Assembly: GCF_003585925.1 (NCBI RefSeq) | Contig: NZ_NRJH01000041.1 | Span: 1-52,011 of the forward strand | From: Psittacicella melopsittaci | GTDB taxonomy: Bacteria > Pseudomonadota > Gammaproteobacteria > Enterobacterales > Psittacicellaceae | Length of the DNA stretch: 52,011 bases | Direction of reading: 5' to 3' | In this document: piece after piece, positions 2,514 through 41,938 of the stretch | Layout of the letters: every line of letters starts with the position of its first letter | Position numbering within the stretch: position 1 is the first letter of the stretch | Made by a program: the position numbers and the translations under genes | Notes under the pieces: model-generated | What the model was told of the DNA's origin: nothing | Databases searched by the model: none | What the model saw: only the letters and a program-made list of their open reading frames with translations

Positions 2514-3230
2514 ATGCAACAACGTAAAGCTATAGTAATTATTCCAGTAAGAGGAAACTCCAAGCGCCTACCTGGAAAAAACATTCGTGAACTGAACGGC
2601 TTACCCTTAGTAGCCCATTCGATTCTCTACGCTAAACTTTTTCCTGAAATAGTTAGTGAAGTATTTGTTTCTACTGACAATGAGGAAATTGCCCAAATTA
2701 GTGCTCAATATGGGGCTAAAATTATTCATCGTCCTGATGATCTAGCACTCGATACTACGCCAACATTACCAGTACTTACCAATGCTTTAGAGCAACTTAA
2801 TGATCCAAGTGTAACTGATGTTATCTTGCTCCAAGCAACTAATCCTCTGCGTACTAAAAATCTTTTACCTGAAGTTTGGCAACTTTATAGCCAATCTGAT
2901 TTAGCCCTGCAAAGCCTTTTCTCGGTTACTCGCAGTTTTGCTAAACTAGGTAAAATCATTGACAATAAATTTGTACCTTGGAACTATAAAATTGGGCAAA
3001 GATCACAAGATTTAGAACCTTTATATTTTGAGGATGGAGTTATTTATATTTCTTCTGCCCAAAATATTAAGCAAGGTATTCTTCTTGACGCTAATGCTTA
3101 TCCTTATATCAATCATAATCTTTCGGTAGATATAGATACAATTGAAGAGTTTGAGCATAGTGAGTATTTATTTAGTCAGTTAAATATTGGCTTAGATGAA
3201 AATAATATCTACAAACCTTTAGAAAGTTAA
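2514..3230 (+). CDS. neuA: Acylneuraminate cytidylyltransferase family (CMP-sialate synthetase-like)
   Basis: This 238-residue cytosolic enzyme is predicted to activate a nonulosonic acid (sialic, legionaminic or pseudaminic type) with CTP to give the CMP-sugar used for surface glycans. The N-terminal nucleotide-binding signature PVRGNSKRLPGKNI is at about residues 12-25. It is followed by the FVSTDNEEIA and LLQATNPLR motifs and a metal-site DIDT near residue 206, all as in NeuA. Length is typical. The stop codon is 2 bases from the next ATG, so it is probably coupled to cca. No sialic acid synthase, epimerase or sialyltransferase lies nearby, so the sugar cannot be named. The family is firm and the substrate open. 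Confidence 0.8.
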   Translation: MQQRKAIVIIPVRGNSKRLPGKNIRELNGLPLVAHSILYAKLFPEIVSEVFVSTDNEEIAQISAQYGAKIIHRPDDLALDTTPTLPVLTNALEQLNDPSVTDVILLQATNPLRTKNLLPEVWQLYSQSDLALQSLFSVTRSFAKLGKIIDNKFVPWNYKIGQRSQDLEPLYFEDGVIYISSAQNIKQGILLDANAYPYINHNLSVDIDTIEEFEHSEYLFSQLNIGLDENNIYKPLES

Positions 3231-3232
3231 GT

Positions 3233-4198
3233 ATGCAAATATATTTAGTTGGTGGGGCAATTCGTGACGCTCTTTTAGGTTGGGATACTAATACCGACTT
3301 GGATTTTATTGTTACAGGTATAGCTGAGCAAGAGCTAGCTCAACATCCAGACTTTAGCCAAATTAATCCCAAATTTCCTGTCTTTGTGCATACAAAAACA
3401 GGCACAGAGCTTGCCTTAGCTCGCAAGGAAATCAAAGAAGGAGCAGGCTATCATCAATTTAGTTTTATTACGCAAAATGTAACCTTAGAGCAAGATTGTC
3501 AAAGACGCGATCTAACGGTAAATGCTTTATATTTACCTGTAGATTCAAGTTTAGATACCTTTCCTCCTACTTTAACAGCTGAGCAAATTCGTGCCCAAAA
3601 AGACAAGGTACTTGACCCCACTGGCAGAGGTATTAAAGATCTCGAGCAAGGTCGTTTAGAACTAATAAGTGCTCAGTTTTGGCAAGATCCTTTACGCTTT
3701 CTCCGAGCTTTGCGCTTTTATTTTACTAAGCCTGGACAATGGCAAATTTCGCCACAAATTCTCGAGGCTAAAAAGCACTTAGCTTCAGACGACTATCTTA
3801 GTCTGTTCCAAGGGCAAAGTAAAATTAGAAAGGAGTTAGAAAAAATTATCCAGCAAGGACAAACTATTCCTTTTTTAACCCTTTTAAGCCAAATTGACAT
3901 GGTAGGAGCTTTAGACTTACCTAGTCCTTTAACTATAGGTTTTAATCTCGCTCCTGCTGATAAAATCCCAGTAAGACAAAGCTTTTATTATCTGTGCCAC
4001 AGCTTTTGTTTTATGAGCTTTGCTCGAGCTTATAATACTAGTTCTAGCTGGGAACATCTGGTTGCCTTTTGGCGTAGTCCTGAGTTCTTTGCCTCCTTGT
4101 TCTTTAATCAACTAGGTAAAAGTGAAATTCGCAACTTACAAGCTCTACTTACTAGTAGTGTGCAATTGAGCCAATTTCAAGCCCAATATTTTAGCTAA
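3233..4198 (+). CDS. cca: CCA-adding tRNA nucleotidyltransferase, short form without HD domain
   Basis: This enzyme is predicted to build or repair the 3' CCA end of tRNAs from CTP and ATP. The N-terminus (YLVGGAIRDALLGW) is the class II head, with metal-binding Asp residues in TDLDF at about 21-25. FPVFVH, LALARKE and the RRDLTVNALYLP motif follow, then DPLRFLRALRF. The protein is only 321 residues, against about 412 in E. coli. The C-terminal half is poorly conserved, and the HD phosphohydrolase domain found in E. coli Cca is not recognisable. It starts 2 bases after the cytidylyltransferase gene and ends at a shared bidirectional terminator. A tRNA-processing role is likely; phosphatase activity is not expected. 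Confidence 0.85.
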   Translation: MQIYLVGGAIRDALLGWDTNTDLDFIVTGIAEQELAQHPDFSQINPKFPVFVHTKTGTELALARKEIKEGAGYHQFSFITQNVTLEQDCQRRDLTVNALYLPVDSSLDTFPPTLTAEQIRAQKDKVLDPTGRGIKDLEQGRLELISAQFWQDPLRFLRALRFYFTKPGQWQISPQILEAKKHLASDDYLSLFQGQSKIRKELEKIIQQGQTIPFLTLLSQIDMVGALDLPSPLTIGFNLAPADKIPVRQSFYYLCHSFCFMSFARAYNTSSSWEHLVAFWRSPEFFASLFFNQLGKSEIRNLQALLTSSVQLSQFQAQYFS

Positions 4199-4200
4199 AA

Positions 4201-4238
4201 AAAAGATCCCCCAAGACATTGTCTTAGGGGATTTTTTA
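4201..4238. terminator. Bidirectional terminator between cca and rplT
   Basis: A long stem (ATCCCC then AAGAC pairing with GTCTT then GGGGAT, with a C/A mismatch between the blocks) and an ATT loop is flanked by A and T runs. It sits between the convergent cca (plus) and rplT (minus) genes and can serve both. Confidence 0.85.
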
Positions 4239-4286
4239 AAAAGAAGACTAACACCTTCATAGTGCTAGCCTTTAAAGAGAGCAGTA

Positions 4287-4640
4287 TTATAGAGCTTCTT
4301 TCACTTTAGCTACTAGAGCTGAGAAAGTTGCTTGGTCGTAAACTGCGATATCAGCTAATACTTTACGATCGATCTCGATGTGAGATTTTTTCAGACCGTT
4401 AATAAATTGGCTGTATGATAAACCGTTGAAACGAGCCGCAGCGTTGATACGTGCAATCCATAATTGACGGAATTGACGTTTTTTCTGACGACGGTCACGG
4501 TATGCATATTGACCTGCTTTAATTACTGCTTGATAAGCAACACGGTATACACGGCTACGAGCACCATAGTAACCTTTAGCTGCTTTTAATACTTTCTTGT
4601 GACGAGCTCTCGCCACTACACCACGTTTAACACGAGCCAT
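4287..4640 (-). CDS. rplT: 50S ribosomal protein L20
   Basis: This is the 117-residue ribosomal protein L20, an early 23S rRNA assembly protein. The start [16 protein letters not shown], the central [20 protein letters not shown] block and the [15 protein letters not shown] segment are diagnostic, and the length matches E. coli L20 (118). It ends the thrS-infC-rpmI-rplT cluster, 16 bases after rpmI. In E. coli L20 represses translation of rpmI-rplT; whether that holds here was not examined. Confidence 0.97.
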
Positions 4641-4656
4641 TTAATTCACCTCTCAA

Positions 4657-4857
4657 TTATCTTGCGTATGGAAGACACGCTACAACTAAAACCTGATCTG
4701 CTTTCGCAACTAAACATTTATTACGTAAATGACGTTTACGTTTAGGAGATTTTTTAGTTAAGATATGGCGAAGGTGAGATTGTTTACGTTTGAAACGACC
4801 TGAACCAGTTTGTTTGAAACGCTTAGCAGCGCCACGTACTGTTTTAATTTTTGGCAT
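4657..4857 (-). CDS. rpmI: 50S ribosomal protein L35
   Basis: This is the 66-residue ribosomal protein L35. The sequence [20 protein letters not shown] and the later [17 protein letters not shown] block are characteristic. An in-frame ATG four codons upstream gives an extra MEII, but MPKIKTV is the family start and is used here. It ends in CLPYAR, one residue longer than the E. coli form. It is co-transcribed with infC (101 bases upstream) and rplT (16 bases downstream). Confidence 0.95.
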
Positions 4858-4958
4858 GATTATTTCCAAAATAATAGTTGATTACGCATTGTACACATAA
4901 AAAGTAAGGTGGTTAACTTTTTCGAGCGTCATGCTCCAAGAGTATTAACGCTTAAACC

Positions 4959-5513
4959 TTAACTTTTCTTCTTAATAGGAGCCATGGTCATCACTAATTG
5001 GCGACCGTCTACTTTTTTACCTGAAGATGATTCAACTACAGCGTAGTCTTTTAAATCTTCAACAAGACGTTCCATTAAGCGAACACCAAGGTCAACGTGA
5101 ACGATTTCACGTCCACGGAAACGGATCGAAATTTTAGCTTTGTCACCGTCTTCGAAAAAGCGGATCAGGTTGCGTAATTTTACCTGATAATCCCCTTCAT
5201 CGGTACCTGGGCGGAATTTAATTTCCTTCACTTGCACTACTTTTTGTTTTTTCTTTTGTTCTTTTAGTGCTTTTTGTTTTTCGTAAAGGAATTTACCGTA
5301 GTCCATGATTTTACAAACCGGTGGGTTTGCCGTAGGACTAATTTCCACAAGATCTAAGTCTCTTTCTTCAGCTATTTCAAGAGCTTCACGAACAGACATA
5401 ATCCCTAATTGTTTACCATCTGCGTCAGTAACACGTACTTCTTTAGCACGGATTTCACGGTTTAAACGATTAGGTTTAGCATTATTTTGTCTACGATTAT
5501 TATTCGGTTTAAT
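4959..5513 (-). CDS. infC: Translation initiation factor IF-3, AUU start
   Basis: IF-3 binds the 30S subunit, proofreads the start codon and prevents subunit joining. The frame is 184 residues from ATT at 5513-5511, against 180 in E. coli. The N-terminal domain ([20 protein letters not shown]) lies entirely upstream of the first ATG in the frame. Starting at that ATG (5399) would lose about 38 conserved residues. The ATT-AAA start matches the known E. coli infC start. GGAG ends 8 bases before the ATT, inside the last thrS codons. The C-terminal domain ([20 protein letters not shown]) is complete. In E. coli the rare AUU lets IF-3 repress its own translation; the same is inferred here. Confidence 0.93.
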
Positions 5514-5515
5514 AA

Positions 5516-7465
5516 TTATTTCTCCGACTCACTGAAAGATACTAGTGAACGTGTTGCAATTTCTTCTTGTAGTTTAGCAACAAAGTCATCCACTTTAAAT
5601 GTACCTAAATCCTTACCTGTACGCGTACGTACTGAGATAGTTCCATCTGCAACTTCTTTGTCACCACATACTAAAATGTAAGGAACACGTTTAATTGTTT
5701 GTTCACGAACTTTGAAGCCTACTTTTTCGTTACGTAAGTCTAGTTTGGTACGAATATTAGCAGCTCTTAGTTTCGCATATACTTGGCATGCGTACTCTTC
5801 TTGCGCACTTGAGATATTTAAAATAGCTGCTTGCGTTGGAGCACACCATGCTGGGAATGAACCAATATATTGTTCAATTAGAATACCAATGAAACGTTCA
5901 ATTGAACCTACACATGCACGGTGAATCATAATTGGGTGATGTTTTTCCCCGTCTTCACCAATGTATGTTGCTTCTAGACGTTGAGGCATGAAGAAGTCTA
6001 CTTGAACTGTACCACATTGCCATGCACGATCTAAAGAGTCATATACTGTAACTTCAATTTTAGGACCATAGAAAGCCCCTTCACCTGGTTGGTATTCAAA
6101 AGTTAAGCCACTTGCAGTAATTGCATTTGCTAAAGCTTGTTCTGCATAATCCCAAGTAGCTTCATCACCAATACGTTTTTCTGGGCGTGTTGATAATTTA
6201 ATTTCAAATTTAGATTCGTCGAAACCAAATACATTATAGATTTCACGAATTAAACTAATACATCCTTGTACTTCAGATTGAATTTGGTCTTGAGTACAGA
6301 AAATGTGCGCGTCATCTTGAGTAAAGCCACGTACACGCATTATACCACTTAATGAACCTGATGGCTCGTTTCGGTGACATGAACCAAACTCAGCCATACG
6401 AATTGGTAGATCACGGTATGATTTTAAACCTTGTTTAAAGATCATAATATGACCAGGACAGTTCATAGGTTTAATCGCATATTCACGGTTTTCTGATGAA
6501 GTAGTGAACATGTTTTCACGATAGTTATCCCAGTGACCTGTTTTTTCCCAGAGAGATTTATCAAGGATAATTGGTGCTTTAACTTCTTGATAGTTATGTT
6601 GTTCTAATTTCTCACGAATGAAGTTTTCAACTGAACGGAAAATAGTATAACCGTCGTTGTGCCAGAAAATTAAACCTGGACCTTCTTCTTGTAAGTGGAA
6701 TAAATCTAATGCTTTACCGATTTTACGGTGATCACGTTTAGCAGCTTCTTCTAGATGTGCTAAGTATTCATTTAGTGATTTTTTATCTGCCCACGCTGTA
6801 CCATAGATACGTTGTAAAGGAATACCTTTAGCATCGCCTCTCCAGTAAGAACCAGATGTTTTCATGAGTTTAAAGTGCTCACAAAAACGCATGTTTGGTA
6901 CGTGTGGACCACGACACATATCAATGTATTCTTCATGGTGATATAAAGCTGGACGTGAATCTTTAGGAACATTGTCCTCTAAGATTTCCATTTTAAAGTT
7001 TTCACCACGTTTTGCAAATGTATCATAAGCTTCTTGCCATGAAACATTTTGTTTAACTACATCGTATTTTGTCGCAGCTAATTCTTTCATGCGTGCTTCT
7101 AAAGCTTGTAACTCTTCATCAGTTAAAGCATGGTCTAATTGCACGTCATAGTAAAAACCTTTGTCAATTACTGGACCAATTGCCATTTTAACATTTGGAT
7201 ATAATTGTTTAATAGCATGTCCTAATAAGTGAGCACAAGAGTGACGAATTACTTCTAACCCTTCTGGATCTTTAGCCGTATAAATTACAACTTCTGCATC
7301 GGTGGTAATTGGATCTACTAGATCTTTTAATTCACCATTAACACGACCGCAAATTGCATTTTTTGCTAAGCTATTACTAATTGATTTAGCAACTTCAGCT
7401 AAAGTTGTAGGTGCAGCAAATTCTTTAACTGAACCATCTGGGAGAGTAATTTTAATATTTGACAT
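5516..7465 (-). CDS. thrS: Threonyl-tRNA synthetase
   Basis: Class II synthetase that charges tRNA-Thr. The 649 residues comprise a TGS domain (about 1-62), an editing domain whose HxxxH zinc motif is at His75/His79, a catalytic core with [19 protein letters not shown] and [21 protein letters not shown], and a C-terminal anticodon-binding domain from about residue 535 ([10 protein letters not shown] to the end). Length is close to E. coli ThrS (642). The stop codon shares its last A with a possible ATT of infC, so the two genes are tightly joined. A 275-base leader precedes the start; E. coli ThrS represses its own mRNA through such a leader, but no tRNA-like operator was demonstrated here. 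Confidence 0.97.
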
Positions 7466-7746
7466 TTAAATTTTCCTTTGAGATAGAGAAGTCACTGCTG
7501 TAACTACAAACTTACGAAACAATAACTCCACATTCCTATTTCATTTTACCCTTATTATTTTAAAACTTCATCACATGGACATAAAAAGAAAAAACTAATT
7601 CTTCTTGTCCTCTAAAGAAAGTTTTAATTACAGACTTAAAACCCTAGGGCAAAAAGAAAAAATAAATCCTTTTTACTCTTGTTATTTTCAAGAGAAAACC
7701 TCTAAAAAATAAGCTCAAGATCATCTTAAAATAATAAACACGGCAT

Positions 7747-7776
7747 ATTATACCAAAATTAACTACCTTTTGTTAA
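7747..7776 (-). promoter_or_regulatory. Probable sigma-70 promoter of thrS-infC-rpmI-rplT
   Basis: On the minus strand TTAACA (7776-7771) and TATAAT (7752-7747) are separated by 18 bases. The predicted transcript would start near 7740, giving a leader of about 275 bases before thrS. The boxes are seen directly; use of the promoter is inferred. Confidence 0.6.
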
Positions 7777-7850
7777 GTTTTTTAAGCACTTTTTTTCTAA
7801 GATTTTTCTTTTCCAATGTCTATTTTTAGCTCTTATTTTTACTTTGAGCA

Positions 7851-7878
7851 TAAAAAAAGCAGGTTTGGCAAACCTGCT
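7851..7878 (-). terminator. Terminator of the ulaABCDEF operon
   Basis: Minus-strand AGCAGGTTT pairs with AAACCTGCT around a short loop and is followed by a run of seven T. It lies 12 bases past the ulaF stop. Confidence 0.85.
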
Positions 7879-7889
7879 AGAATTACTCG

Positions 7890-8591
7890 CTATTTCTTCT
7901 GACCGTAGTAAGCATCTTTTCCGTGTTTACGTAAAAAATGCTTATCTATTAATACTTGTTGCATAGGGCGTGAATTTGGAGAAATAATAAATGAATTAAA
8001 ATTCATTAAAGCTACTTCTTCAAGTACTACCGCATTATGCACTGCCTCAAGACAATCTTTACCCCAAACAAATGGTCCATGAGAAGCAACTAGTACTCCA
8101 GGTACCATGTTTGGATCTATTTCTCGTTTTCTAAAAGTCTCTACAATTACTCGACCAGTTTCTAATTCGTACTCACCCTTAATTTCCTCTTCGGTCATGC
8201 GACGCGTACAAGGAATAGTGCCGTAAAAATAATCAGCATGGGTGGTACCTAAAGGAACTATATCACAACCTGCTTGAGCCCAAGTGGTTGCATTGCGCGA
8301 GTGAGTATGCACAACTCCACCAATATCTGGAAACTGTCTATATAACTCAACATGAGTAGGAGTATCTGAAGAAGGATTTAAATGCCCTTCAACTACTTTA
8401 CCTGTGTTTATATCTACAACCACCATATCAGAAGCTGTCATATCATCATACTCAACTCCCGAAGGTTTAATTACCATTAACCCTGAGGCACGATCAATTT
8501 CACTTACATTACCCCAAGTAAAAGTAACTAAATTGTGTTTTGGGAGAAGTTTATTTGCTTTGAGGACTTTTTCTTTTAAATGTTCCAGCAT
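7890..8591 (-). CDS. ulaF: L-ribulose-5-phosphate 4-epimerase
   Basis: Last step of ascorbate catabolism: converts L-ribulose 5-phosphate to D-xylulose 5-phosphate, which enters the pentose phosphate pathway. The 233-residue class II aldolase/epimerase fold shows the substrate loop [10 protein letters not shown] (about 25-34), the zinc-site [14 protein letters not shown] (about 97-110), [10 protein letters not shown], and [10 protein letters not shown] near residue 170. AAGGAG lies 6 bases before the ATG. It follows ulaE by 17 bases and ends the operon. The homologous AraD acts in arabinose use, but the ula context decides the name. Confidence 0.92.
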
Positions 8592-8608
8592 AATTACTCC
8601 TTAAAGTT

Positions 8609-9472
8609 TTAGATAAATCCTGCAGTTTTCATTTGCTCAAGAATCCACTCTTTAGCATGTTTAAGTTCTGCAACAGGATCATCTGCCTTTTCTGTCCACA
8701 TTTCAATTAAAAATGCGCCCTTGTAGTCAAGACTTTTTAGGGTTTTAAATACTTCTACAAAGTCTACACAGCCTTGCCCAAAAGGAACATCTCTAAATTG
8801 CCCAGGGAAATCAGGAGTAACCTTATAAGTATCTTTAAGATGGATAGCGGTAATATAACCAATACCTTTGGTTAACTCTTCGCTAACATTGTCATTCCAT
8901 GCACTTAGATTACCTACATCTGGATAAACACAAAACCATGGGTTATTTACCAGTTCTTGATACTCTAACCAACGCGTGATCGAACTCATAAACTCAGTAT
9001 CCATAATTTCTACTGAAACCATCACTTGATGCTGAGCTGCCAATCTTGCCGTCCAAAGCATTCCTTCTTTGAATAACTCTATTGTATGTGCATCTTGTTC
9101 TTCGTAATAAACGTCGTAACCAGCCAGTTGAATATTTCTTATCCCTAAGTCTTGAGCTAGCTTAATAGCTTTGGTCATAATAACCTTAGCTTCTTCACGA
9201 ACTTCAGGATTATGACTACCAAATGGAAAACGACGATGGCCTGATAAACACATGCTACGTATATCTACGCCAATTTCGAGGCGAGCCGCATTGAGTTTTT
9301 GACGTTCTTCTAAAGACCAATCTAAACGAGCTAAACGCTCATCAGTTTCGTCAATAGAAATTTCTACATAATCGTAACCTAACTCTTTAGCTAGACTTAA
9401 GCGTTGCTCCCAAGTAATATCTTTAGGTAAGGCTTTTTCATAAATACCTATAGTAACTTTATTTGCTAACAT
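8609..9472 (-). CDS. ulaE: L-xylulose-5-phosphate 3-epimerase
   Basis: Converts L-xylulose 5-phosphate to L-ribulose 5-phosphate, between the UlaD and UlaF steps. It is 287 residues of TIM-barrel sugar-phosphate isomerase type. Recognisable segments are IGIYEKALPKDITWEQRL at the N-terminus, LAKELGYDYVEISIDE, SMCLSGHRRFPFGS near residue 80, the metal-site region VSVEIMDTEFM and HLKDT, and the final FLIEMW. Length matches E. coli UlaE (284). GGAGG lies 5 bases before the ATG and overlaps the end of ulaD. Confidence 0.93.
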   Translation of the reverse strand: MLANKVTIGIYEKALPKDITWEQRLSLAKELGYDYVEISIDETDERLARLDWSLEERQKLNAARLEIGVDIRSMCLSGHRRFPFGSHNPEVREEAKVIMTKAIKLAQDLGIRNIQLAGYDVYYEEQDAHTIELFKEGMLWTARLAAQHQVMVSVEIMDTEFMSSITRWLEYQELVNNPWFCVYPDVGNLSAWNDNVSEELTKGIGYITAIHLKDTYKVTPDFPGQFRDVPFGQGCVDFVEVFKTLKSLDYKGAFLIEMWTEKADDPVAELKHAKEWILEQMKTAGFI

Positions 9473-9480
9473 TTAGCCTC

Positions 9481-10128
9481 CTACCAGTATTTATTAACTT
9501 CTTCGCGAATAGCTAAAGCAGTTTGTTCTCCTCCCTCTTTGGCTAAAGCACGCCCTGCAATGAAGGCTTTAGCTTTAATGCCTTGGAATAAATGAATATC
9601 CTCAGGTACGATACCACCAGTAATTGAAAGGTCTAAGCCTAAGTCAGAAAGAGCACGCATTTTAACTAGATCTTCTTCTTCCCAACCGCGTCCTGCTAGT
9701 TCAGCATCACGTGAACGGTGGTAAATAGCTTGTTTAATACCTAGGTCTACCCAAGCTTTAGCATCTTCATAAGTCCAGTTACCATAAATTTCGATTTGAA
9801 TTTCACGACCAAACTCATCTGCTACTTTTTTACAAGCTGCAATAGTTGCAATGTGTGCAGCTGCAGATACAGTTAACCAATCCGCACCAGCTTTAAAAGC
9901 CATTTCTGCTAAAATTTTTCCGCCGTCAGTTGTTTTTAAATCACAAGCGAGAATATGATCTGGATATTCTTTACGTAAAACTTCAACCGCTTTCATCCCT
10001 TCGGCAAAAGCAAGAATCGTTCCAACTTCAATAATATCAACAAAAGTTGATACTTTTTTTGCTGTATCTAAAGCTGTCTCTAAGTTTAAAGAATCTAAGG
10101 CAATTTGTAATAAAGGTTTTTGACTCAT
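9481..10128 (-). CDS. ulaD: 3-keto-L-gulonate-6-phosphate decarboxylase
   Basis: Decarboxylates 3-keto-L-gulonate 6-phosphate to L-xylulose 5-phosphate. It is a 215-residue TIM barrel of the orotidine-decarboxylase suprafamily. VDIIEVGTILAFAEG, the active-site DLKTTDGGKIL (aspartate and lysine motif), YHRSRDAELAGRGW and the phosphate-binding TGGIVPED and FIAGRA are all present. The ATG at 10128 is chosen because GGAG sits 7 bases upstream; an in-frame GTG four codons earlier has no such site. Its stop TAG forms part of the ulaE ribosome-binding site. Confidence 0.93.
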   Translation of the reverse strand: MSQKPLLQIALDSLNLETALDTAKKVSTFVDIIEVGTILAFAEGMKAVEVLRKEYPDHILACDLKTTDGGKILAEMAFKAGADWLTVSAAAHIATIAACKKVADEFGREIQIEIYGNWTYEDAKAWVDLGIKQAIYHRSRDAELAGRGWEEEDLVKMRALSDLGLDLSITGGIVPEDIHLFQGIKAKAFIAGRALAKEGGEQTALAIREEVNKYW

Positions 10129-10145
10129 TTTATGCTCCACTTTTT

Positions 10146-10619
10146 TTAAACATTGCCATAAGTTTCTACAACTTTAAGCACTTCTTCTACACTTGTACAA
10201 TTACGGAAACGAGATAAATCTACTCCGTCTTCAGAATCTTCGTCATCAATAATTTGCATTAACTGCGTTAAAGCATAACCATGACTTGTTGCATCTGCAC
10301 CTGCTAAAGTAAAAAATACATCTGCTTGTGAGCCGTCGGAAAACTCTACAGGTTCAGATAAGGTTACAATCGCAAAGGCAGTAAAGTTTACCCCATCTTC
10401 AGGACGAGCATGAGGCATGGCTAAGCCTGGACAAAGAATAAAATAAGGTCCTAATTCATTTACACTTTTTACAATCGTTTGGTAATACTGCGGAGTGATT
10501 GCTCCTGATTTTTCAAGAAGATCAGTACCAATTTTTACCGCTTGTTCCCAAGTCGCTGCAGATTGATTTAACAATACCGAATTGTTTTCAATTAGTGAAT
10601 CACGTAAATTTACAGTCAT
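10146..10619 (-). CDS. ulaC: PTS ascorbate EIIA component
   Basis: Cytosolic phosphocarrier that passes phosphate from HPr to the EIIB domain of the ascorbate permease. It has 157 residues of the mannitol/fructose EIIA type, and the phosphorylated histidine lies in LAMPHARPEDGV. The start MTVNLRDSL at 10619 is preferred because AAAGGA lies 6 bases upstream and the length then matches E. coli UlaC (154). The upstream in-frame extension runs into an intergenic hairpin. It is second in the operon. Confidence 0.92.
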   Translation of the reverse strand: MTVNLRDSLIENNSVLLNQSAATWEQAVKIGTDLLEKSGAITPQYYQTIVKSVNELGPYFILCPGLAMPHARPEDGVNFTAFAIVTLSEPVEFSDGSQADVFFTLAGADATSHGYALTQLMQIIDDEDSEDGVDLSRFRNCTSVEEVLKVVETYGNV

Positions 10620-33285: not shown

Positions 33286-34062
33286 TTATTGCTCTAAAGG
33301 TTTATCGTCAATACCGTATTTTTCTTTTAATTTTTCTAAAGTACCGTCAGCTTTTAATTTTGCAATAGATTTATTTAAGGCTTCAAGTAAGGCTGTATCT
33401 TCTTTACGTACAGCAATACCTAAACCTTGAGAAATCATTGGGTTATATACTGGTTGCCCTAGTACTTTTACTCTTTGACTTGGATCTTTTAAGTATTTAT
33501 TAGCTACATCTAAAGATTCAAATACTGTTTGCACACGCCCACCTTTTAAATCCAGCATAGCTGTATCAAAAGAAGGATAGGTTCTTAAAGTTACATTAGG
33601 AACGTGTTCTTGTAAATAAACTTGTAAGGTAGTACCTTGTTGCACACCAATATTTTTTAATTCACTTACACTCTTAAGTGGAGAATTATTATTTACAATA
33701 TATACGCCTGGAATTGGATCAATATAAGCGCTAGTAAAGTTTACGCGTTTTTTACGTTCATCAGTAATAGATAAAGCTGACACTACCATATCAGTCTTTT
33801 TAAACAGTAGATTTGGAATTAAGCCCTCGAACGCACCGCGATCTAGTTTACAAGTAACACCTAAGTCAGCACAAATATAGTTAATTAACTCTACATCAAA
33901 GCCTGTGAACTGACCTTGTTCATTTAAATATTCGTACGGATAATAACCGTCTTCAATACCAATAGTTAAAGTTGAAGGGATATTATTTGCATTTGCTTGC
34001 GCAAAAGAAAGAGCTGAAGCACCTAAAGCACAAGCGGTTAACATTTTTTTAATATAAGACAT
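33286..34062 (-). CDS. Polar amino-acid ABC transporter binding protein, copy 2
   Basis: Periplasmic solute-binding protein of the HisJ/ArtJ/LAO class, 258 residues with a signal peptide (cleavage after about ANA, residue 25). Family motifs are IGIEDGYYPYEYLNEQGQFTG, the carboxylate-binding Arg region in VSALSITDERKKR, and VGVQQGTTLQVYL-like segments. It is about two-thirds identical by eye to the gene upstream, so it is a tandem duplicate. GAGG precedes the ATG. It is followed at once by the fucosyltransferase. An ACAAGCGGT word lies at its 5' end (34030-34038). The histidine leader upstream makes histidine a likely ligand, but this is inference; no permease or ATPase gene is nearby. Confidence 0.88.
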   Translation of the reverse strand: MSYIKKMLTACALGASALSFAQANANNIPSTLTIGIEDGYYPYEYLNEQGQFTGFDVELINYICADLGVTCKLDRGAFEGLIPNLLFKKTDMVVSALSITDERKKRVNFTSAYIDPIPGVYIVNNNSPLKSVSELKNIGVQQGTTLQVYLQEHVPNVTLRTYPSFDTAMLDLKGGRVQTVFESLDVANKYLKDPSQRVKVLGQPVYNPMISQGLGIAVRKEDTALLEALNKSIAKLKADGTLEKLKEKYGIDDKPLEQ

Positions 34063-34115
34063 ATGTTCCTCGTTAATTTGTTTGTTGTTTATGCGTTACT
34101 CATTTTAACAAATTT

Positions 34116-34907
34116 TTATTGTTTTGCTAAAAATACTTTGTCATCTTGATTAAGATCATACTTCGCATAAAGTTGGGTTAATAATCCTTGACTTCTAGCT
34201 TGTTCTAAAGCTGCGTTAATTTGCGCAAGAAGTTCAGTATTACCTTTGCGTACGGCAATAGCTGTACCTTGAGAAATAAGATCACTATATACAGGTTCGC
34301 CTAATACTTGCACGCGGTTAGTTTGATCATTGAGGTATTTTGCACTTACGTCAATAGATTCAAATACAGCGTCTACTCGACCTCCTTTTAAATCTAACAT
34401 TGCTGTATCAAAAGAAGGGTACATTTTAATTTGCACATTTTTTGGTAGAGCTTGTTTTAAATACACCGCTAAAGTAGTACCTTGTTGTACTCCTACTACT
34501 TTAAGTTGTTCTATTTGTCCAGGAGCATTATTTTGATTAACAATAAATACTCCAGGTTTAGCTTCAATGTAAGGAGTACTAAAGTCTATACGTTTTTTAC
34601 GTTCATCAGTTATTGCTAAAGCAGAAATAACCAGATCAGTTTTTCTAAAAATTAATTCAGGAATTAAACCTTCAAAAGCACCACGTTTTAAAACACAATT
34701 AACTTGCATTTGCTGACAAACAAAGGTAATTAACTCTACATCTAAGCCTGTGAATTGACCTTGTTCGTTGGTGTATTCATACGGATAATAACCGTCTTCA
34801 ATACCTATAGTTAAAGTTCTTTGTGGTGTATTAGCTAAAACATTAGCAGAAGTAAAAATAGAAGCAATTAAAGTTGTTACAGTTACAAAAGTTTGAAATA
34901 GTTTCAT
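34116..34907 (-). CDS. Polar amino-acid ABC transporter binding protein, copy 1
   Basis: Periplasmic solute-binding protein of the HisJ/ArtJ/LAO class, 263 residues from the ATG at 34907, with a signal peptide ending near VLA (about residue 26). Motifs mirror the second copy: IGIEDGYYPYEYTNEQGQFTG, ISALAITDERKKR, VQQGTTLAVYL and SFDTAMLDLKGGRVDAVFES. A GTG two codons earlier is the other possible start. It is the first structural gene after the histidine-rich leader, 370 bases from the leader's stop. Its ribosome-binding stretch (GGATGATGTGATTATG) is partly complementary to the leader's His codons. The ligand is inferred from the leader, not from residues. Confidence 0.88.
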   Translation of the reverse strand: MKLFQTFVTVTTLIASIFTSANVLANTPQRTLTIGIEDGYYPYEYTNEQGQFTGLDVELITFVCQQMQVNCVLKRGAFEGLIPELIFRKTDLVISALAITDERKKRIDFSTPYIEAKPGVFIVNQNNAPGQIEQLKVVGVQQGTTLAVYLKQALPKNVQIKMYPSFDTAMLDLKGGRVDAVFESIDVSAKYLNDQTNRVQVLGEPVYSDLISQGTAIAVRKGNTELLAQINAALEQARSQGLLTQLYAKYDLNQDDKVFLAKQ

Positions 34908-34975
34908 AATCACATCATCCTTACATCATTAGAGCTTACCTCTAAGATGAATATTCTAAAAAGCAAACTTTTTCT

Positions 34976-36856: not shown

Positions 36857-37822
36857 TTATGCTTGCTCTATGGTAAAGGAAATAACTTCGGCAATACTTG
36901 CCTCTTGCATTGCCAGCATAATAAATCTATCGAGCCCTAAAGCTATACCCGAGCACTCAGGCATACCATGTTTTAAAGCCGCTAAAAGCTTTTTATCTAC
37001 GGCTATAGCCTCTTGGTTATTTGTTGAGCGTTGATAGAGATCAGCATGAAAACGTTGCTTTTGTTGTTCCCAGTTAGTTAACTCGTAAAAACCATTGGCC
37101 AATTCTATGCCTTTATAAAAGACTTCTGCCCTTTGAGCTGTACGTGGATCTTCGGCAGTAATTTGGGCTAGAGCTGCCTGACTCGCAGGATAATTGTAAA
37201 TAGCTACAGGATTATTTTGCCCTAAAAATGGTTCAATACAAGTACTAAATAAAAACTCTAATATTGTATCCTTGTCATATTTGTCCGCGTGGTATAAGCC
37301 AAAATTTTTGGCATGCTCAGCCAGTTCTTTATGGTTGGCAGTTAAAGGAGAAAAACCTAGATACTTTTTAAAAATAAATTCATAGGTATAGCGTTCGAGC
37401 ATCTCAAAGTTAAAAAAGACATGAAAGAGCTCTTCTACTTCATCGAGCAAGCGTTGTAACGTATAGTTAGGTTGATACCATTCGAGCATGGTAAATTCAG
37501 GATTATGCTTTTTACTTGTAGGCTCATAACGGAAACATTTACAAATTTGGTAAATTGGTCCCGATCCTCCCGCTAAAAGACGCTTCATAGCAAACTCAGG
37601 TGACGTATTTAAAAAATACTCTTTGCCCATGTACTCAGTTTTAAAACTATCTAAATGCACATCGGTAACTGCTGCTTGAGCTAAAATTGGAGTTTCTACT
37701 TCGATTAAGCCCTTATTATCAAAAAATTGACGAATTTTTTGAATAATCTTATGACGCACTTTTAAATCGTGACGCGTCATTTTACTTTGCCATTCTACGC
37801 CTTCTAAATTAATTTGTTCCAT
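36857..37822 (-). CDS. epmA: EF-P lysine lysyltransferase EpmA (GenX/PoxA)
   Basis: Attaches beta-lysine to elongation factor P. It is a class II lysyl-tRNA-synthetase paralogue without the anticodon-binding domain. FDNKGLIEVETPILAQAAVTDVHL, SPEFAMKRLLAGG, NPEFTMLEWYQPNY, KGIELANGFYELT and ALGLDRFIMLAM follow the E. coli EpmA order. The start MEQINLEG at 37822 gives 321 residues (E. coli 325). A longer frame from TTG at 37864 would start inside the manA terminator stem and is rejected. yhiN follows directly. EpmB and efp are not in the window. Confidence 0.92.
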   Translation of the reverse strand: MEQINLEGVEWQSKMTRHDLKVRHKIIQKIRQFFDNKGLIEVETPILAQAAVTDVHLDSFKTEYMGKEYFLNTSPEFAMKRLLAGGSGPIYQICKCFRYEPTSKKHNPEFTMLEWYQPNYTLQRLLDEVEELFHVFFNFEMLERYTYEFIFKKYLGFSPLTANHKELAEHAKNFGLYHADKYDKDTILEFLFSTCIEPFLGQNNPVAIYNYPASQAALAQITAEDPRTAQRAEVFYKGIELANGFYELTNWEQQKQRFHADLYQRSTNNQEAIAVDKKLLAALKHGMPECSGIALGLDRFIMLAMQEASIAEVISFTIEQA

Positions 37823-37837
37823 ACTTAGATAAATGTT

Positions 37838-37870
37838 GAAAAAAGTCTTTGGAGCCTGCTCCAAAGACTT
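37838..37870 (-). terminator. Terminator of the yobD-manA fusion gene
   Basis: AAGTCTTTGGAGC pairs perfectly (13 bp) with GCTCCAAAGACTT around 2 bases, followed by T on the minus strand. It ends 8 bases after the manA stop and precedes epmA. Confidence 0.88.
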
Positions 37871-37877
37871 TAAGTAA

Positions 37878-39710
37878 TTATTTTACACTCGCAATTACCA
37901 CTAAAGCTTTTTCGCCTTTATAGGTTACCTTGCGATCTACAGAAGCAAACACTGCTTGATTAGATTTAATTGCTAAACTTTGTGCATGTACGCTTTGGTC
38001 ATTAAACTCAAGAGTACCTTGAGCATTTAAGAAATACCAAATTGAAGCATTGTCAGTTTGATAAGTATCATTATTATTTAACTCAACAAGCTTGTAAGTA
38101 AATTCTTCACTTGGTAAATCATAATCACCTTGAGCATAGATTTTTGGTGTCACCGCTTGCGTATCAACTAAACGTAAATAAAGTTCGCTATTTATGTGTT
38201 TTGTCGTTAAGCCACCACGTACTACATTGTCAGAGTTAGCCATAACTTCAACTAAACGTCCTCTTAAGTAAGCATGCGGAATATTTGGCCCTTGATAAAT
38301 ACCTTGGAAAGGTTCGAGTTTAACGAGGTTGAAAATGTAAAAACTAATTAAACCTACATCAAGATTATCAAGTTCCATGCATAAGCTTTTATAAGTAAAG
38401 GCTACCCAGTAATCTGGATCTTGATTTGCCAGCTCTACATTTAAACCGTCTTGGTCATAAGTGAAAGTAGTTATATCCGCTGCTTCTAATTGACGTTCAA
38501 TTAGATTGTCATAAAGTTCTACTGCCGTCTGAATATGCTCACCAAGAAGCTCTTTTAATTCTGCTTTTGACTTAGTGAAAAGTTCGGCATAAGCTTGCCC
38601 TAACTCACGACTAGCAATAAATTCTTTTAATTGGGCTAAAGCTGGTTTACCTTCAAGTTTAGCAAGAACATTTTCTTTACTATCAAAACCATGTAGTAAG
38701 TACATAGGCGTTAAAGCCATCCCAAATTCAGGTTTATGGTTTTTATCCTTAAAGGTACGATTAGCACTTTTTAGGTTAATCCCAAGTTTATCTTCTTGAG
38801 CATAACCTTGCTCAGCCGTTTGCTTATCTGGATGAATTTGAATCGATAAAGGACGAGCTACGTCAAGAATTTTAAATAAGAAAGGTAAACCTTCATTACG
38901 TACTTGCTCATCTTGCCCCTGAACTAGAGGTTGCCCATAAGCAATATTGTAGTTTAAGAGCACATTATAATCTTGATGTGCATCTACTTCAATTGGATCT
39001 TGGTTTGGGTTTTGGGCATAAAAACGGCTAGTTAGGTATTCTAACTGTGCCCCAGGAATAACTATGCTCGCCTGTCCGCTTGGATGAGTACCATACCAAA
39101 CTTCAGCAATTTGTTGTTTTTCGAGACCATACTCTTGGGCTAAATACTCTTTACCGCCCCAGTCATAATCTTTGGTTACGCCATGCAGTAAAAATACCCC
39201 ACGTGCTTGGGAAGCAATTTGGGCAAGACGATGACGTTGAATAACTTCTTTAGCATTGCCTAGATTTAGTTTTTCCGCACAGTATAAAATCGTATCAAAA
39301 TCCTTTTGCCCTTTAGGTTTAAACTTAAAGGCACGTGGCATACCCTGAATTTGAATAACTAACTGGTTCTTTTCATCAACTTTAAAATCAGCTATAGCTT
39401 CATTAGGAATTACCCCGTATTTAGTTGCCACACTATTTTCATTGACAACTATACGATGAGGATTTAAATAGCTAATTTTTATTACCAGAAGCATAACTAT
39501 AAAAGCTAATGTCTGGGTAAATACATCATCTTGCGATTTGAAAATGGCAAAAATCATTAAAGCAATAAAAACTAAAACAAAAGGTTTTAGTTCACGCTTA
39601 TAGTTAATTACAGCCTTAGCTTCTTTAGTTACTTTTAAATAAAGATTGGTACGAAAATCTAATAAGATTGCACCTACAATAAGGATTACTAAAAATATAT
39701 TAGTCAACAT
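37878..39710 (-). CDS. manA: Mannose-6-phosphate isomerase fused behind a YobD-like (DUF986) membrane domain
   Basis: The C-terminal part (from about residue 171) is a type I mannose-6-phosphate isomerase: VFLLHGVTKDYDWGGKEY, the zinc ligands of SIQIHPDKQTAE (Gln and His), HKPEFGMALTP (Glu) and GPNIPHAYLRGRLVEVMA (His). It interconverts fructose 6-phosphate and mannose 6-phosphate. The N-terminal 170 residues have three hydrophobic stretches (about 1-18, 42-58 and 63-81), then NPHRIVVNENSVATKYGVIPN and a beta-rich cytoplasmic part that resembles E. coli YobD, a protein encoded next to manXYZ. Total length is 610, against 391 for E. coli ManA. One uninterrupted frame joins them. ManA is certain, the YobD match strong by eye. 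Confidence 0.88.
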   Translation of the reverse strand: MLTNIFLVILIVGAILLDFRTNLYLKVTKEAKAVINYKRELKPFVLVFIALMIFAIFKSQDDVFTQTLAFIVMLLVIKISYLNPHRIVVNENSVATKYGVIPNEAIADFKVDEKNQLVIQIQGMPRAFKFKPKGQKDFDTILYCAEKLNLGNAKEVIQRHRLAQIASQARGVFLLHGVTKDYDWGGKEYLAQEYGLEKQQIAEVWYGTHPSGQASIVIPGAQLEYLTSRFYAQNPNQDPIEVDAHQDYNVLLNYNIAYGQPLVQGQDEQVRNEGLPFLFKILDVARPLSIQIHPDKQTAEQGYAQEDKLGINLKSANRTFKDKNHKPEFGMALTPMYLLHGFDSKENVLAKLEGKPALAQLKEFIASRELGQAYAELFTKSKAELKELLGEHIQTAVELYDNLIERQLEAADITTFTYDQDGLNVELANQDPDYWVAFTYKSLCMELDNLDVGLISFYIFNLVKLEPFQGIYQGPNIPHAYLRGRLVEVMANSDNVVRGGLTTKHINSELYLRLVDTQAVTPKIYAQGDYDLPSEEFTYKLVELNNNDTYQTDNASIWYFLNAQGTLEFNDQSVHAQSLAIKSNQAVFASVDRKVTYKGEKALVVIASVK

Positions 39711-39982: not shown

Positions 39983-41938
39983 TTATTTTTTTGATTTTTT
40001 GGTAGTTTTTTCTGCTTTAGCTTTAGTAGTTTTAGCTTTTGTTGCTTTAGCTTTAGTTGCTTTAGCAGGAGCTTTTTCTTCTACTTGTGGTTTGTTTTTT
40101 GCTAGAGCTTTGTCTAGACGCTCACGCATCATACGACCCATGCATGAAGCATCACCTTGGAAGAATTTTTCTACCTTATCTTTACCTGAGAATTGTTGAG
40201 CAATGTTTAAACGCTCTAATGGGTTTTCAATCATACGTAGAGCTGCTTCAACATATTCTTCAGTTGTTTTAGCTACTGTCCACTCAGGGAAACCTAAGTA
40301 GTGGAATAAACCATCGTCAATGTGCTCAAATACTTCTGGACCAGTTTTACAAATACCTGGTAAACCTGCAGTAATAGTATCCACAATACCGTTAGTATTA
40401 CCGAATGGGAATGGGTTTAAGAACATATCACATTTTGACATAATGTTCATATATTCTTTATAACCTTTGTGTTCGTGAACAGTTACATTGTCTTTACCTA
40501 ATGCTTGTTGAATAATATTTTTAATGTGCATATGGGTAAGACCAATTGCTTGACCAATTAAGAAGTGGAAATGGATTTTCTTCTTAGATTTATCAAGAAT
40601 TTGTTTTAATGTTTGTAATAGTTTAGGGTTAAATTTCATAATAGTTGCAGCCATTACGATATTAACCACTTCAGGATCAAATTCACGTTTAGTATTTAAA
40701 TCTAAATCCTGAGCAAACATTGAAGGACGATAGAAAATATCTTTTGGTAGACGCATTAATTCTTCAGAGAAGCATTTAGGTGTGTCTTCACCAACATAAA
40801 TATCTTCTACTACTACATAATCAATGTACGGAGAGTTAGTTGTAGCTGGGTGACCTAGAGCTACCATTTGTACTGGAGCAATACGTAAACATGTCATGAA
40901 AATTGAGTTTAAGAACATCCCAATTGATGGCATGTAGAATACGTGTGCACCACATTGTTCAGCTACATCACGAACAAATTTAACTTGTTCAAATAATGGA
41001 ATATTGTCTTTGATTGGAATATATTCGTCAAATACGCCGTGAGTTTCTTTACCTACACGGTTTTCTAGACCCATACCGATTACGTGGAACTCTTTACGTG
41101 CTTCGTCAATACAACGTGAGTGAGTACGCCAAATTGAGTGACCGCCTGAGAACCATTCTAAAAGCACTAATAATACAGGTTTTTCACCTTCTTTAACTTC
41201 TGTAGGTAAGTTAGGAACGTCACCAATACCAGCTTTTTCTAATTGTAAACGCATTAAGCGGTTAAGTGGTTTTTTAATATCGTGACGTTTTGGTGTATCT
41301 GCATATGAACAGTGCATGTAAACATCGTGAAGGATAGAAACTGGAACTGAATCTAATGAATCTAGTTCATAGAGTTTTTCAGGTAACCATTGTAAAAGTA
41401 ATTCACGTTTGTCATGAGCTGCTTGAGTACCTAATAAACGTGGAGATAATAAAGCAAAGCATAATTGACATGTTAAGTGACGATTTACTTGCCATAGACC
41501 TTCAAAGTTTAGAGGTACGTTTGAATCTGGAAGATAGAACATAGCAAATTTAGCTAGGTTTTCCCCACCGATTACAGGATTGTTAGCATCTTCACTTTGG
41601 TTGAAAGCTTGAATAATGTGATCAGCATTACGGAACGGAGACGCCGCAAACATCATCTCTACCCAACGTTGAAGGTAAATCATTTGACTAAAGCCATGAT
41701 CACTGATTGTGAAGTTTTTATGTAAGAATAAGTACGTAGTCGCACTAATAATTCTTGATAAAAAGTGTTCGGTTAGTTGATCATTTAACGCTAATACAGG
41801 AACATTAGCAGTAAATTTTTCGGTTAACTTCCCTAAGTCACCATCTAAATCACGTAAAAAACCAATGAACTGACGTGCAGCTTCTTCGAAGTTATGATGA
41901 TAACAGTTATATTCGTATTTATTTAAATTAAAAGCCAT
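39983..41938 (-). CDS. HMW1C-like cytoplasmic N-glucosyltransferase with a basic C-terminal tail
   Basis: Predicted GT41-family enzyme that adds glucose from UDP-glucose to Asn in N-x-S/T sites of surface proteins before export. It follows A. pleuropneumoniae NGT along its length: AAARQFIGFLRDLDGDLGKL, VYMHCSYADTPKRHDIKKPL, FYMPSIGMFLNSIF, VALGHPATTNSPYIDYVVVE, LRLPKDI, NPFPFGNTNGIVDTITAGLP and CKTGPEVFEHIDDGLF. The family length is about 620; here the last 35 residues add a low-complexity Lys/Ala/Thr tail (KATKAKATKAKTTKAKAEK) like histone H1 or AlgP. No adhesin or two-partner exporter is adjacent, so it looks like the stand-alone NGT type. It is monocistronic. Confidence 0.92.
   Translation of the reverse strand: MAFNLNKYEYNCYHHNFEEAARQFIGFLRDLDGDLGKLTEKFTANVPVLALNDQLTEHFLSRIISATTYLFLHKNFTISDHGFSQMIYLQRWVEMMFAASPFRNADHIIQAFNQSEDANNPVIGGENLAKFAMFYLPDSNVPLNFEGLWQVNRHLTCQLCFALLSPRLLGTQAAHDKRELLLQWLPEKLYELDSLDSVPVSILHDVYMHCSYADTPKRHDIKKPLNRLMRLQLEKAGIGDVPNLPTEVKEGEKPVLLVLLEWFSGGHSIWRTHSRCIDEARKEFHVIGMGLENRVGKETHGVFDEYIPIKDNIPLFEQVKFVRDVAEQCGAHVFYMPSIGMFLNSIFMTCLRIAPVQMVALGHPATTNSPYIDYVVVEDIYVGEDTPKCFSEELMRLPKDIFYRPSMFAQDLDLNTKREFDPEVVNIVMAATIMKFNPKLLQTLKQILDKSKKKIHFHFLIGQAIGLTHMHIKNIIQQALGKDNVTVHEHKGYKEYMNIMSKCDMFLNPFPFGNTNGIVDTITAGLPGICKTGPEVFEHIDDGLFHYLGFPEWTVAKTTEEYVEAALRMIENPLERLNIAQQFSGKDKVEKFFQGDASCMGRMMRERLDKALAKNKPQVEEKAPAKATKAKATKAKTTKAKAEKTTKKSKK

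Follow-up and report, generated by a model that had tools for sequence, protein, structure and literature searches.

ManA, the type I mannose-6-phosphate isomerase, is generally known as a soluble enzyme, and Escherichia coli yobD, a gene of the DUF986 family, belongs to a sugar-uptake locus that is among the best studied. A preliminary description of the DNA studied here had noted that yobD lies beside the mannose PTS genes manXYZ, and the E. coli records examined indeed have the gene order manY-manZ-yobD. With regard to function, no study of DUF986, YobD or UPF0266 was found in the open-access full-text papers searched; YobD is mentioned in one screen of single-gene knockouts for resistance (PMC12147183).

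Here, we have analyzed a stretch of 52,011 nucleotides from Psittacicella melopsittaci (contig NZ_NRJH01000041.1), which is referred to below as the window. Psittacicella is a genus of the Psittacicellaceae within the Pasteurellales. The window carries a fusion gene in which a YobD-like membrane domain and a complete ManA are encoded in one frame.

Organization and conservation of the fusion gene

The fusion gene occupies positions 37878-39710 on the minus strand as a single open frame of 610 amino acids, with an ATG start and no internal stops. The preliminary description had claimed one frame joining a YobD-like part to ManA, and this was borne out at exactly these coordinates, to which the strand could be added. 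The gene is flanked by tRNA-Met and an HMW1C-type glycosyltransferase gene on one side (the latter upstream at 39983-41938, minus strand; PF18254 and PF18071) and, on the other, by epmA, which encodes the EF-P lysine ligase (36857-37864, minus strand; TIGR00462, 381.5 bits against a cut-off of 286.9) and begins 13 nt downstream; both are neighbors only and lie outside the fusion. The order of fusion gene and epmA is common to other Psittacicella, and the flank order is repeated on their contigs as far as these reach. An HMW1C-type glycosyltransferase gene is also found near the fusion on the P. hinzii B96_3 and P. gerlachiana contigs. Elsewhere in the window (33286-34913), there is a tandem pair of genes for similar solute-binding proteins, one of which was scanned and assigned to family 3.

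Among 40 related genomes searched, each of the three remaining Psittacicella genomes (P. hinzii B96_3, P. gerlachiana EEAB3T1 and P. hinzii 111) encodes the fusion in full length; these proteins are 58-71% identical to that of the window. A contig search with the N-terminal domain of the window protein alone gave no matches in the genomes because its peptide patterns are not conserved; with the four-sequence alignment as the query, the three named Psittacicella genomes were recovered. The fusion was not found elsewhere among 295 genomes of the order. It was likewise absent from 140 Pasteurellaceae genomes, 73 of which have DUF986 in open frames of no more than 210 amino acids. A sequencing error or a missed stop that joined two separate genes has a practically negligible probability as an explanation: four genomes, three of which are named public assemblies, share the same unbroken frame at 58-71% protein identity, which excludes the frameshift or missed stop that the preliminary description had named as a possible refutation, and we found nothing in favor of such an artefact.

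Comparison of the four fusions showed that the inter-domain helix and linker (residues 134-170; 39201-39311, minus strand) has 54% invariant columns, compared with 32% and 39% for the two DUF986 parts and 45-51% for ManA; within the N-terminal region, conservation is highest in the joining helix. The dN/dS values were 0.14-0.33 for the DUF986 half and 0.13-0.17 for the ManA half; only their sign, that both halves are selected, is safe because synonymous sites are near saturation. On this codon-level comparison, both halves of the fusion are under purifying selection.

The isomerase domain

The C-terminal part (residues 171-610; 37881-39200, minus strand) is, judging from profile matches and motifs, a complete type I mannose-6-phosphate isomerase. 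It matched PF20511 with 85.5 bits (cut-off 22) and TIGR00218 with 165.9 bits (cut-off 116.2), and its motifs IQIHP, NHKPE, PHAYL and NVVRGG are in register with the solved ManA structure 2wfp. Five residues, Q291, H293, E328, H479 and R498, are invariant across the four fusions and have their counterparts in the corresponding 2wfp motifs; from the Candida enzyme 1pmi, we take them to be the zinc ligands and the catalytic arginine. The fusion is the only type I enzyme of this kind in the window genome. The window gene has no in-frame ATG, GTG or TTG from residue 124 to residue 250, and thus a separate full-length ManA cannot begin inside it, whereas two orthologues each have a single GTG codon (at 159 in G001 and at 174 in G003), which leaves an internal ManA start possible there.

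Phylogenetic analysis placed the fused ManA in the Pasteurellaceae ManA clade (100/100 support), apart from enteric ManA, although the long branch on which it sits makes its position inside the clade uncertain. In the same tree, Pasteurellaceae/Psittacicella on the one hand and enteric plus other families of the order on the other form two groups with a very long branch between them, which looks as if one lineage had acquired a different ManA. The two P. hinzii strains are only about 62% identical in the catalytic part of ManA (B96_3 and 111; loci L056 and L058), whereas B96_3 and P. gerlachiana share 75% identity in this part, and strain 111 is the outlier in the tree. One of the P. hinzii strain names may be wrong or may stand for a separate species.

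Relationship of the N-terminal domain to DUF986

Residues 1-141 (39288-39710, minus strand) constitute the DUF986 (YobD-like) membrane domain. The preliminary description had noted a resemblance of the N-terminal residues to E. coli YobD, and a profile search supported it in part: PF06173 aligned residues 3-141 of the window protein with profile positions 1-141 of 148 (E = 0.0013), but the score of 19.3 bits is below the Pfam cut-off of 23.6. The NCBIfam profile for DUF986, PRK02913, gave 26.3 bits (E = 6e-6), which is far under its equivalog cut-off of 152. On the window protein by itself, the assignment is suggestive only. Its relatives provide the missing strength. Both profiles matched all four members of the genus (best E values of 3.9e-9 for PF06173 and 5.8e-10 for PRK02913); for PF06173, all four matched at E <= 0.1 and only one, the G003 orthologue, exceeded the cut-off, with 36.9 bits in a frame of 638 amino acids. 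In addition, hhalign comparison of the four fused N-terminal domains with 14 true DUF986 sequences gave a probability of 94.5 (E = 8e-8) and a score of 50.7 over 112 columns, whereas none of 200 local column shuffles scored above 25.3 and reversing the alignment gave 24.9. Because the genus orthologues and the profile-profile comparison agree, homology of the window domain to DUF986 can be considered settled.

It should be noted that the domain has diverged considerably. Fused and free DUF986 are 16-21% identical, and the fusions keep about 5 of the 18 columns that are invariant in free DUF986; thus, we class the domain as a divergent DUF986 by homology and not as a functional equivalent of YobD. 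A match to the SLATT domain (E = 0.0004, far under its cut-off) was judged a chance hit among small membrane proteins and rejected. No solved structure matching DUF986 was found by sequence search.

Predicted topology and structure

Hydropathy analysis revealed three hydrophobic segments near residues 1-19, 41-59 and 63-84 in the four fusions and, at a threshold of 1.4, at the corresponding positions in 13 of 14 free DUF986 proteins. In the window protein, the predicted transmembrane helices span residues 1-19 (39654-39710; Kyte-Doolittle peak 2.45), 41-59 (39534-39590; peak 2.09) and 63-81 (39468-39524; peak 1.89), all on the minus strand, and the position of the first is identical across all DUF986 proteins compared. 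The loop between the first and second helices is basic (six K+R, two D+E), that between the second and third is short and acidic, and the part following the third is basic again. According to the positive-inside rule, these charges place the C-terminus, and hence ManA, in the cytoplasm. The membrane-tethered isomerase proposed in the preliminary description fits this pattern: hydropathy and loop charge strongly suggest that ManA is tethered to the inner membrane on its cytoplasmic side.

Structure prediction, which the preliminary description had proposed for the full protein, was of limited use at that length: the full-length model built from four sequences had a mean pLDDT of 46, which is poor, and it was set aside. 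An AlphaFold model of the N-terminal domain, also from four sequences, was somewhat better (mean pLDDT 65.5) and contained three helices, about six strands and two further helices. Residues 85-133 (39312-39458, minus strand) would form its beta-rich cytoplasmic part. Foldseek matches of this model had E values of 0.025 or higher and VIA-align Z scores were about 5-6; the matched chains mostly belong to the PH superfold (PH and FERM domains). Because these scores are below the range that can be trusted, a PH-like fold is only a suggestion, and a membrane-inserted PH-like fold for DUF986 is only a lead from modeling.

Genomic context of DUF986

The preliminary description had tied DUF986 to mannose uptake, and the gene neighborhoods showed this link to be stronger than claimed. 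manZ and then manY lie directly upstream of DUF986 in all 30 loci of the order that were examined, and EIID is present in 34 of 34 genomes above the DUF986 cut-off, compared with 84 of 295 overall, although these genomes are related and the counts are therefore not independent. A sample of 369 genomes from the class yielded no DUF986 beyond the order. On the other hand, about 45 genomes have EIID and lack DUF986; thus, DUF986 is not essential for a mannose-type PTS.

In Pasteurellaceae, manA is usually the next gene. DUF986 is present in 73 of the 140 genomes, and 69 of the 73 also have type I manA. In 62 of these 69 genomes, the manA match is on the DUF986 strand and starts 0-141 nt past the DUF986 match. 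Family f9 was taken as Pasteurellaceae on the basis of its uptake-signal density (24 occurrences of AAGTGCGGT in 57 kb versus none in 31 kb of enteric loci). The two genes may even overlap, the DUF986 stop being overlapped by the manA start as ATGA in two loci (L039 and L045) and as TAATG in a third (L050). In one locus (L060, genome G135), manZ is followed by two other genes before DUF986, and the DUF986-manA pair is intact; of these extra genes (2676-4258 of that locus), the first appears nuclease-like by eye. Four genomes of one Pasteurellaceae genus (G734, G736, G737 and G738) keep DUF986 and have no type I manA match, which indicates that DUF986 can exist without this isomerase.

The window genome has manXYZ, comprising a fused EIIAB, EIIC and EIID, on another contig (C19), with no DUF986 after manZ. 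The fusion is the sole DUF986 of this genome.

Probable origin and possible function of the fusion

The most plausible reading is that the fusion arose when two neighboring genes of a manXYZ-DUF986-manA operon merged, and that it was later split from manXYZ. This history is the simplest one because manA directly follows DUF986 in Pasteurellaceae and the fused ManA falls in the clade of that family. An ancestor in the Pasteurellales would have possessed such an operon; in Psittacicella, loss of the DUF986 stop would have created the single DUF986-ManA gene, which would then have been separated from manXYZ. In its product, DUF986 would provide three transmembrane helices followed by a small cytoplasmic beta domain and would carry the complete ManA at the cytoplasmic side. 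The domain most likely keeps the isomerase on the cytoplasmic side of the membrane, near the point at which mannose-6-phosphate leaves the PTS, and the released sugar phosphate would be converted to fructose-6-phosphate at once. In our view, DUF986 serves the mannose-type PTS as an accessory subunit in the inner membrane, and we infer that the fused domain docks to the PTS and that mannose-6-phosphate is handled locally. Against such docking, the fusion gene is no longer beside manXYZ, adjacent operon genes can fuse without any functional coupling, and the fused DUF986 is too divergent for a common surface of contact with the PTS to be apparent; the genomes with EIID but no DUF986 also count against it. 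Taken as a whole, the explanation of a merged-gene, membrane-anchored ManA, with DUF986 as a PTS accessory subunit and local handling of mannose-6-phosphate, has in our judgment about an even chance of being correct.

It is also conceivable, though rather doubtful, that the merger was neutral: a small indel would have joined two overlapping neighbors, and the membrane domain would be a passive anchor without functional gain. The adjacent and often overlapping genes of Pasteurellaceae would make this a one-step event, and the restriction of the fusion to one genus in the genomes searched agrees with it, but purifying selection on the DUF986 half and the marked conservation of the joining helix do not, nor does the retention of three transmembrane helices in all four genomes, since an unused anchor could have been lost. 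Quite unlikely, in our opinion, is a role of DUF986 as a sensor or regulator whose beta domain senses mannose-6-phosphate or PTS phosphorylation and adjusts the PTS or ManA, a control that the fusion would make intramolecular. Although its operon position, its fusion to the enzyme consuming the PTS product and the beta-rich cytoplasmic domain with its weak PH-like matches would suit this role, we identified no ligand site or conserved polar cluster in DUF986, and few residues are conserved between its fused and free forms.

Uptake may not be the sole context for mannose-6-phosphate, since Psittacicella has genes for GDP-mannose and GDP-fucose synthesis. A GDP-fucose cluster (manC, gmd and GDP-fucose synthase; 3759-10572 of locus L069) lies beside an MsbA-like transporter gene and also includes two tandem YibB-like genes. 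The anchored ManA could accordingly be mainly synthetic, supplying mannose-6-phosphate near the membrane, from which GDP-mannose and GDP-fucose for surface-glycan assembly would be made, and the presence of a GMP/PMI-family ManC, gmd and GDP-fucose synthase adjoining such a transporter favors this. However, ManC, by family a bifunctional GMP/PMI, could act as a second isomerase and supply its own PMI activity, and the loci examined link DUF986 with manXYZ rather than with the genes for GDP-sugar synthesis; we regard a synthetic role as slightly less probable still than a sensor.

Returning to the docking of a membrane-anchored ManA to the PTS, a related proposal is that YobD/DUF986 itself recruits ManA to the mannose PTS, and that the fusion fixes a contact which is transient in Pasteurellaceae and perhaps in E. 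coli. This proposal is tentative and appears improbable to about the same degree as a neutral merger. If it were true, uptake and first metabolism would form one membrane assembly, and DUF986 would be a previously unrecognized PTS subunit. A membrane-bound ManA would in any case be unusual. Our data add a likely operon-merger origin of DUF986-ManA, and the fusion and the manXYZ-DUF986-manA order seen in dozens of Pasteurellaceae jointly offer a testable clue to the function of DUF986/YobD.

Comparison with known systems

The N-terminal domain resembles E. coli YobD (DUF986, UPF0266, PF06173) in its three hydrophobic segments and in the C-terminal part that follows, as seen by hydropathy and family alignment, and the profile match to the YobD family extends along nearly its full length. 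Members of that family sit right after manZ and are free proteins of about 150 amino acids, whereas the Psittacicella domain is fused to ManA and only 16-21% identical to them. With type I ManA (PF20511, TIGR00218; structures 2wfp and 1pmi), the C-terminal part shares a full-length domain and the active-site motifs, with scores over the curated cut-offs; the enzymes compared are stand-alone frames of about 390-460 amino acids, whereas in Psittacicella ManA is preceded by a membrane domain and a linker. The manXYZ-DUF986-manA loci of Pasteurellaceae contain the same gene pair in the same order, sometimes overlapping, with ManA of the same clade. There, however, two separate genes lie beside manXYZ, whereas Psittacicella has one fused gene away from manXYZ.
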